The notes beneath the pieces are model-generated. The model made no database searches. It worked only from the letters and a program-made list of their open reading frames with translations, and was not told where the DNA came from. Shown here one piece after another: positions 10,107 to 31,649 of a stretch of 61,641 nt of DNA. Source of the DNA: Deltaproteobacteria bacterium (GTDB taxonomy: Bacteria > Desulfobacterota > Desulfobaccia > Desulfobaccales > 0-14-0-80-60-11); assembly GCA_016874975.1 (NCBI GenBank), contig VGSQ01000004.1, forward strand, positions 1 through 61,641, written 5' to 3'. Numbering within the stretch: the stretch's first letter is position 1; every line of letters begins with the position of its first letter. The position numbers and the translations under genes are program-made.

Positions 10107-10698
10107 GACAGATACAGGGGCAACCTTGAAGCCGCCGAAGAGGCGGACACCGCCCCCCTCTTCCTGATTCGGCCGCCCCGCTCCTTTCCTTAAATGGTGG
10201 CGCCGCTCCGGGAAGCGATGCCAGGTGTCGGATGTCAGGTGTCGGAGGCCGGATTTTCCGCCTCGTTCCCAGGCTTCGGCCTGGGAAAGTTTCCCGGCAG
10301 TCGCGCCTGGGCCGTCGGCCCGCCTGTAACACCTGAAAAGTCTCGCAGGGCGGGCTCTGCCCGCCGCCGACGCCTGGCAACGGTGCCCGGTCGCACCCTG
10401 CGGAACCGGGGGGAAGTGGGAAAATTCCGTCCCCTCCTTCCCCGGGCTTACGCGCCCGGATTTATCAACCGAGCCACCCGGCCGCCCCTATCCCCCGGAC
10501 CCGGGCCATGTGCTTCAGATACACGCGGGTTCATTATAAGCATTCTTGGCGGCGGAGTCATTAGTCGCCTCAGCAGAAGTGCCATTTCAATTCCGGAAAA
10601 ACCTGCTGTGGGGCAACCCTTTGAGAAATACGTCGATTCCTGACTCCTTCCCTTGTCAACTGCTTGACCGCATGGTAAGTTTTAAAAATTCAGGTTGT
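10107..10698. other. Intergenic region with short repeats
   Basis: No gene is supported. It holds a 7-bp-periodic tract (CCAGGTGTCGGATGTCAGGTG near 10219), a CCCAGGCTTCGGCCTGGG palindrome and a GGGCGGGCTCTGCCCGCC hairpin (also near 55745). A minus-strand TATAAT near 10533 has a poor -35 box. The DnaJ-like gene reads away to the left. Confidence 0.5.
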
Positions 10699-10851
10699 GA
10701 TGGCCTCGTAAAAAGTCCATTCACCCCCTCACCCCAGCCCTCTCCCCCAAGGGGGAGAGGGAGATAATGAGGCATATCAATCAGTTATCAATAGCAGCGA
10801 GAGCCATCTTTTGGGGATGGTATGGCCTTTTTGACTTTTTACGATTCCATC
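10699..10851. mobile_element. MITE-B, complete copy
   Basis: A 153-bp element bounded by GATGGCCTCGTAAAAAGTC and GACTTTTTACGATTCCATC, a 19-bp terminal inverted repeat with two mismatches. It is flanked on both sides by the direct repeat AGGTTGT (7 bp, 8 if the C is included), as expected of a target-site duplication. The interior carries a CCCTCTCCCCCAAGGGGGAGAG palindrome and an AT-richer half. A second, rearranged copy lies at 31217 in opposite orientation. There is no ORF, so it would need a transposase in trans. Confidence 0.8.
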
Positions 10852-10948
10852 AGGTTGTCTGATTTTTACGGCTGCGGGCTTGCCCAGGGGTTATTCCGGT
10901 CCCGCCCCGGCAGCCCCGGGTTTGCCTCGGAAGGGAGATGACGGGCCT

Positions 10949-11503
10949 ATGGCTCTGCCGAAACGAATTGTCCTCACCGGCCCGGAGGTGGACCGCACTC
11001 TGGAGCGGTTGGCCGAAGAGGTCTTGTTGGGTCGCGCCCACCTGGACGAAATGGTGGTGGTGGGCATCCGCACCGGCGGCGCCTTCCTGGCCCAACGTCT
11101 GGCCGACAAGTTGGAGCGGCGCCTCAAGCGGCCGGTCAGGGTGGGTATTCTGGACATCACCCTCTACCGGGACGACTGGACCCGCATCAGCCACAAGCCC
11201 CTGGTGGGAAAGACGGAACTCCCCGGCTCCATCGACGACCAGGACGTGCTGTTGGTGGACGACGTCTTTTTCACGGGCCGCACGGTGCGGGCCGCCCTGG
11301 ACGCCCTCATCGACTACGGCCGGCCCCGCCGCATCGAACTTCTGGTGCTGGTGGACCGGGGCGGCCGGGAGTTCCCTATCCGGCCCGACTTTACGGGCTT
11401 GCTCCTCAGCCTCCCGTCCGAGGAGCGGGTCAACGTCTACCTGACGGAGATGGGCCCGGAGGACCAGGTGGCCATCGAAGCCACCCCGGCCTATAAGGGC
11501 TGA
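10949..11503 (+). CDS. pyrR: PyrR bifunctional protein (pyr regulator / uracil phosphoribosyltransferase)
   Basis: The protein is 184 aa of phosphoribosyltransferase type I fold. The PRPP-binding motif is VLLVDDVFFTGRTVRAALDAL (about residues 100-120). The VGIRTGGAFLA, DITLYRDD and RVNVYLTE segments are PyrR-specific. The start at 10949 (MALPKR) is chosen over the track start because family members begin here and AAGGGAG lies 11 bp upstream. The family either attenuates pyr transcripts through RNA binding or salvages uracil. No other pyr gene is in the window and MITE-B sits about 100 bp upstream. Confidence 0.93.
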   Translation: MALPKRIVLTGPEVDRTLERLAEEVLLGRAHLDEMVVVGIRTGGAFLAQRLADKLERRLKRPVRVGILDITLYRDDWTRISHKPLVGKTELPGSIDDQDVLLVDDVFFTGRTVRAALDALIDYGRPRRIELLVLVDRGGREFPIRPDFTGLLLSLPSEERVNVYLTEMGPEDQVAIEATPAYKG

Positions 11504-31141: not shown

Positions 31142-31216
31142 CTAATCAACATCTTTCTCTTCGAGCCCCGCCATCTTCAGAAGATGACGCAGCAGCCCGG
31201 TTTTCAAAGGAACATT
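31142..31216 (-). pseudogene. hicA toxin gene, C-terminal remnant
   Basis: Minus-strand frame ending at TAG: INVPLKTGLLRHLLKMAGLE then EKDVD. This resembles the HicA C-terminus (V-P-x-H...-L-x-x-G-x-L-x-x-I-L-K-x-A-G-L). The frame is cut at 31217, exactly where the MITE-B copy begins. On the far side of the nest, 24 bp after the hicB stop, ATGAAAATTAATTCC (31611-31625) could be the old hicA start. The double-stranded-RNA-binding core with the catalytic His is absent, so no active toxin is expected. Identification rests on about 24 residues. Confidence 0.5.
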
Positions 31217-31369
31217 GATGGAATCGTAAAAAGTAAAAAAGGCCGTACTATCTCCAAAAGGTGGCTCTCGCTGCCATTGATAACTGATTGATTTGCCTCA
31301 TTAACCCCCTCTCCCCCCGGAGGGGGGAGAGGGAGAATGATCGGGGTTTTTTCCCTCTCCCCCGATGGG
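31217..31369. mobile_element. MITE-B, second copy (left part, interrupted)
   Basis: Opposite orientation to 10699-10851. It starts GATGGAATCGTAAAAAGT and matches the first copy at roughly 90% over about 87 bp (for example TGGCTCTCGCTG and TTGATAACTGATTGAT). CCCTCTCCCC palindrome modules follow. MITE-A is inserted in that module; its continuation GGAGAGGGTCAGGGTGAGGG resumes at 31591. The distal terminal repeat is missing. Confidence 0.7.
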
Positions 31370-31579
31370 CATTGGCGCTAACTTAAGAAAAAACCAGTTT
31401 ACATCATAACATACCGATTTTACTTAAAATCCCCCTAAATCCCCCTTTCCCAAAGGGGGACTTCGGGTCACCGACTGCTCATTCCCCCCTTTGGCAAAGG
31501 GGGGTAAGGTGTGATTTATCTTGACTGTTCAACAGGTTACCCTTGTCATACCCGCTGCTTGCTTAAGTTAGCGCCAATG
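31370..31579. mobile_element. MITE-A, copy 1 (210 bp)
   Basis: Perfect 18-bp terminal inverted repeats: CATTGGCGCTAACTTAAG at the left and CTTAAGTTAGCGCCAATG at the right. The 11-bp direct repeat CCCCCGATGGG flanks both sides. The reverse complement of 53248-53457 matches with about seven substitutions and no gaps. The interior contains CCCCCTTTCCCAAAGGGGG and CCCCCCTTTGGCAAAGGGG hairpins and no coding frame. Confidence 0.88.
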
Positions 31580-31649
31580 CCCCCGATGGGGGAGAGGGTC
31601 AGGGTGAGGGGGAATTAATTTTCATCTGCGGTTATTTCAATGCATGAAT

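Follow-up and report, generated by a model that had tools for sequence, protein, structure and literature searches.

Architecture of the locus

The window analysed here is a stretch of 61,641 nucleotides of a deltaproteobacterial draft genome, in which a MITE, labelled MITE-B, lies between the pyrR gene and its promoter. The relevant features, including a second and incomplete copy of the element, are listed below.

10653 to 10681, forward strand: pyrR promoter, composed of TTGTCA (10653 to 10658), a 17-bp spacer and TAAGTT (10676 to 10681); layout kept in relatives
10692 to 10698, no strand: target duplication AGGTTGT, left copy
10699 to 10851, forward strand: complete MITE (MITE-B), 153 bp; 17 complete copies in the genome and one copy, 94% identical, in another genus of the family
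10699 to 10717, forward strand: left terminal inverted repeat GATGGCCTCGTAAAAAGTC
10720 to 10770, forward strand: interior dispersed palindrome (family A), with matches without MITE-B elsewhere
10738 to 10748 and 10751 to 10761: perfect 11-bp stem CCCTCTCCCCC / GGGGGAGAGGG of family A
10833 to 10851, forward strand: right terminal inverted repeat GACTTTTTACGATTCCATC
10852 to 10858, no strand: target duplication AGGTTGT, right copy
10949 to 11503, forward strand: pyrR, 184 aa (NF003549 PyrR, E 6.8e-60, above the cut-off)
31216 to 31333, reverse strand: truncated MITE-B copy, element positions 47-161 only, without a left end

A first-pass annotation had described a 153-bp element with 19-bp inverted ends and AGGTTGT on both sides, and the positions of ends and flanks confirm it at 10699-10851. 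The 19-bp terminal inverted repeats are 90% complementary over 20 nt. The element is non-coding, has no transposase gene inside and falls within the MITE size range of 70-300 bp. The end motif (≤ 3 mismatches) occurs three times in the window versus 0.06 expected, a number that none of 100 shuffles reached, and the right-end motif (≤ 1 mismatch) is found 39 times in the own genome versus once for a reversed control pattern. MITE-B is a genuine MITE: its size, inverted ends, dispersed copies and target duplications, together with an IS that has the same ends, bear out the original reading.

Copies and target duplications

The genome-wide count proposed in the first-pass annotation gave 17 complete copies, each 153-154 bp long, in a draft genome of 3.34 Mb, along with five partial copies. 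The complete copies are 91-100% identical, with a mean of 95% (fifteen 153-bp copies compared base by base). Outside this genome, a single additional complete MITE-B, interior included, was encountered; it lies in genome G013, from a different genus of the same family, and is 94% identical. The second copy reported at 31217 in the window is present in the opposite orientation, but it is a fragment with one end missing and 88% identity over element positions 47-161. It runs into more hairpin repeats and another inverted-repeat element. The latter (31367-31582), whose ends are close to GGCATTGGCGCTAACTTAAG, is bordered on either side by CCCGATG and is inserted in the hairpin repeats beside the truncated copy.

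Exact duplications among the 17 complete copies measure 6 bp in 13 cases and 7 bp in two (the pyrR copy included), and two copies have none. At 131 element places with the same ends, spread over many genera, a matching unit of 6 bp was found 68 times and one of 7 bp 18 times (86/131 together), nearly always of the form A-N4/5-T; in a control that paired the flanks of different elements, 12 per 1000 matched at 6 bp. The family normally duplicates 6 bp, with 7 bp as a less common variant. The duplication first described is thus exact at 10692 and 10852, but its 7-bp length is not what the family usually shows. We also considered assigning the T/A tips to the element, which would leave a 4-5-bp duplication and fit IS1182. 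This was rejected, as the tip exceptions are equal in count in the far copy (three left tips with A versus three far-right A, and one right tip with G versus one far-left G), so the tips belong to the duplication.

Several MITE-B copies (L007, L008, L014 and L016) are embedded in tandem repeats of 7-bp units, for instance (TTTAGGG)n or (CCCAAAA)n, and (AACYTTG)n-like flanks border 11 of the 12 inspected IS ends (L207-L219; genomes G008 and G027 and the own genome, G000). This possibly reflects a target preference for heptamer arrays.

An interior palindrome shared between repeat contexts

Family A is a GC-rich palindrome, CCCTCACCCC-GCCCTCTCCC, at positions 33-79 of the searched segment. Matches without MITE-B exist at some 20 or more further sites in the own genome, in 21 of the 22 family genomes, and on plasmids of other classes (Azospirillum, Pantoea and Enterobacter). 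In the own genome family A also fills a 69-bp ATGAAAAGTTC...GAACTTTTCAT unit, and one locus (L019) is a chimera of MITE-B and this unit (ATGAAAAGTT repeat), joined at the shared palindrome hairpin.

In the MITE-rich genome G146, an 800-kb sample contains 75 segments bounded by the ends of MITE-B. Of these, 63 hold a palindrome from one of four other, unrelated families (GTCATTGCGAG for B, GTCATTCCGG for C, TTCGACAAGC for D and CTGCGTTGCG for E), compared with 41 of 2000 randomly drawn segments of matching length, a descriptive count given that the motif lists were drawn up after seeing examples. A second abundant shell in G146 (L336-L375), with ends GAGNCTCTTGCAAAAGT and mostly 4-bp duplications, carries families C and D (17/22). 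Plasmids of Alpha-, Beta- and Gammaproteobacteria carry families B and D as well, and family B is also present on cyanobacterial plasmids; the plasmid search with family C found nothing.

Because the same ends hold different palindromes and the same palindromes lie in different ends, ends and cargo look interchangeable. We give about even odds to the broader proposal, in which transposon ends and dispersed palindromes are interchangeable modules, several unrelated shells carry the same palindromes, and palindromes spread as MITE cargo and swap shells by recombination within the hairpin. The palindromes might instead be mobile themselves, REP-like and served by Y1/RAYT transposases, and have jumped into existing MITEs with no exchange of shells. 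Five Y1-transposase matches (PF01797) in the own genome (contigs C26, C104, C6, C144 and C62; L259-L263), possibly REP-associated transposases, speak for this explanation, as does the occurrence of family A in several repeat contexts. However, the palindromes are found directly inside the ends, at short spacing and with recurring total lengths (135 and 152-156 bp), and 34 of 40 family-C clusters and 23 of 28 family-B clusters in the G146 sample lie within or adjoin the ends. In addition, no palindrome insertion into a bare MITE was noticed among the elements encountered. We consider self-mobile palindromes without shell exchange fairly unlikely. Interchangeable cargo would give common bacterial palindromes a possible means of travel that can be tested.

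Distribution of the ends and their probable mobiliser

Exact ends were detected in 116 of 395 sampled genomes of the phylum (about a third), whereas the reversed control matched once in all of them together. Among the matches listed, those with GTDB names are mostly Desulfobacterales, Desulfobulbaceae, Syntrophaceae and other 'Deltaproteobacteria'. Going by these names, the organism of the window probably belongs to the same phylum, Thermodesulfobacteriota. The interiors between these ends vary widely, and the elements measure between 83 and about 300 bp. Certain total lengths recur in elements with unrelated interiors, with clusters around 112, 127-129, 133-135, 152-157 and 163-166 bp. A search of papers with the end sequence returned unrelated papers only, and no publication on the MITE family was found there.

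The first-pass annotation had called for an IS with such ends, and one exists in the same phylum. At a contig edge of the own genome (C181) lie the first 227 bp of an IS with these ends, comprising the left end and about 32 codons. This edge and contig edges in G008 and G027 share one layout: one such end, then about 110 bp, then the reading-frame start MIRTRDPRQASLIDPWGDLGPKRRQLLENSWA. Past the first 19 bp, the left end of the IS has no resemblance by eye to the MITE-B interior. Searching at the protein level turned up a copy with an internal deletion in G002 and then full-length relatives; the broken transposase of G002 was read through for layout only, and its intact first part served as the query of the family search. 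The full-length IS is about 1.9 kb long and encodes one protein of about 585 aa, and in the best case both ends are within 1-3 mismatches of the MITE ends. Two intact IS are flanked by exact 6-bp duplications, ATTGTT (L241) and AATCTT (L245). A 1.4-kb candidate IS (L206) was discarded, as the gene enclosed by its two ends looks by eye like one for a sigma factor and not for a transposase.

The best model for the transposases is NF033551 (IS1182), with E values of 4e-45 to 9e-48 and 155-164 bits versus a curated cut-off of 270. They match PF13751, PF01609 and PF05598, so a DDE transposase domain is present, and D152, D361 and E486, which are invariant in alignment A1, are candidates for the catalytic residues. 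In the more remote relatives L317 and L319 the ends are different, close to TGATCCCTGAGAAGTAAC, and the duplications still measure 6 bp. As relatives outside the clade have different ends, the ends discussed here follow this transposase clade. The partner of MITE-B is probably a divergent IS1182-like DDE IS group. The 4-bp duplication of ISPse1 is not matched (6 bp, with a minority of 7 bp), and we therefore use 'IS1182-like' and do not file the group as a member. That a transposase other than the one of MITE-A mobilised MITE-B, as previously claimed, is plausible because the ends of both elements differ.

No intact transposase of the IS1182-like clade was found in the assembled own genome. 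A detectable one is present in 19 of the 395 phylum genomes, nine of which also have exact ends, and only five of 15 MITE-rich genomes yield a transposase match, all of them fragments or distant. Repeats collapsed in draft assemblies could explain part of the missing transposases. A different transposase could also use these ends in most genomes, the IS1182-like IS merely sharing them. This would account for MITE-rich genomes such as G146, where 584 exact ends occur in one 5.3-Mb draft genome without a match in the profile search for the partner transposase, and where 800 kb of sequence showed no long element that is bounded by terminal repeats and has a duplication. Against it, proteins of the IS1182-like clade are flanked on both sides by these very ends, whereas relatives outside the clade have different ones, and 6-bp A-N4-T duplications are common to IS and MITE. 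We regard an alternative mobiliser as improbable. The IS1182-like group is the probable mobiliser of a MITE family with exact ends in 116/395 genomes and up to 584 ends per genome.

Insertion into the pyrR leader

Orthologues of pyrR are present in all 22 family genomes. A TTGTCN-17-TANNTT promoter or close variant lies upstream of the gene in 17 of 21 family members, and most of these have the box 144-154 nt before the VGIRTGG codons of pyrR. In the window, the target duplication begins 10 bp past the promoter and MITE-B separates the promoter from pyrR. We infer a transcription start just after the promoter and, with the promoter on the far side of MITE-B, the insertion lies within the pyrR leader. 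The element had been placed upstream of pyrR, which holds insofar as it precedes the gene, but it is located downstream of the pyrR promoter, inside the leader. MITE-B is absent from pyrR in all 21 family members compared, which represent other genera; isolated single-ended matches (3-4 mismatches) were taken as chance. Likewise, orthologous pyrR loci with the segment but without AGGTTGT, which would have spoken against a transposition, were sought in these 21 members and not found.

The element region folds better than shuffles (RNA z -4.3, DNA z -3.8). Neither a terminator nor a promoter was detected on the pyrR strand when the region was scanned, and the ribosome site has a predicted accessibility of 0.58 if the element is present and 0.51 if it is left out (start assumed at 10688). 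A regulatory effect on pyrR is possible, though not indicated by these predictions. Rfam gave no family at gathering thresholds, and sub-threshold matches look like chance. When joined flanks were checked for gene disruption via long open frames, long spurious frames proved common. The idea that the segment is a host-encoded leader RNA or pyrR attenuator resembling a MITE draws on its leader position and its folding, but it can practically be dismissed given the absence of the segment from pyrR in 21/21 relatives, the 16 other complete copies at other sites, the target duplication and the lack of an Rfam family at the gathering threshold.

Proposed origin

We assign a probability of roughly 85% to the reading that MITE-B is an IS1182-like shell around a dispersed palindrome, mobilised by an IS1182-like transposase and placed in the pyrR leader by one event. 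The non-autonomous element would consist of a 19-bp IS1182-like terminal-repeat shell, GATGNNNTCGTAAAAAGTC, around the palindrome. An IS1182-like DDE transposase would bind its ends in trans and join them to an A-N4/5-T target with a 6- or 7-bp stagger, after which repair would make the duplication. One such event would have placed the copy about 10 bp downstream of the pyrR -10 box, and the leader of the pyrR mRNA is expected to be 160 nucleotides longer as a result, with the added part forming a stem-loop of its own. Palindromes may pass from one shell to another through recombination inside the hairpin or through template switching there.

The pyrR locus amounts to a defined experiment of nature, in which promoter and gene are both conserved and the leader between them has received an insertion. 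The leader position is ordinary but precise, and it is the modular palindrome cargo that deserves specialist attention.

Comparison with known systems

The MITEs of ISMac2 (IS1182 family) in Methanosarcina acetivorans are 160 and 169 bp long, non-coding and bounded by 25-26-bp inverted ends (PMC3852290). Like MITE-B they are short, non-coding elements with inverted ends and an IS1182-family or IS1182-like partner, but their host is archaeal and their duplication is listed as 4 and 0 (PMC3852290), whereas the MITE-B family has 6-7 bp. ISPse1 of Paracoccus, also of the IS1182 family, measures 1653 bp with 16-bp ends and a 4-bp duplication (PMC3281130). The DDE transposase of the partner IS likewise scores best against the IS1182 model, yet this IS is longer (about 1.9 kb), remains below the model cut-off and duplicates 6 bp. 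Chunjie of Geobacter uraniireducens, a MITE of 178-235 bp with conserved ends and duplications, is inserted at an operon (review PMC10969869); going by the description in that review, it resembles MITE-B in its comparable size, conserved ends, duplications and gene-adjacent insertion. Finally, the interior of MITE-B is a dispersed extragenic palindrome of the same general kind as the REP and palindromic repeats of prokaryotes (PMC3733652), but here the palindrome sits inside the ends of a DDE transposon with target duplications.
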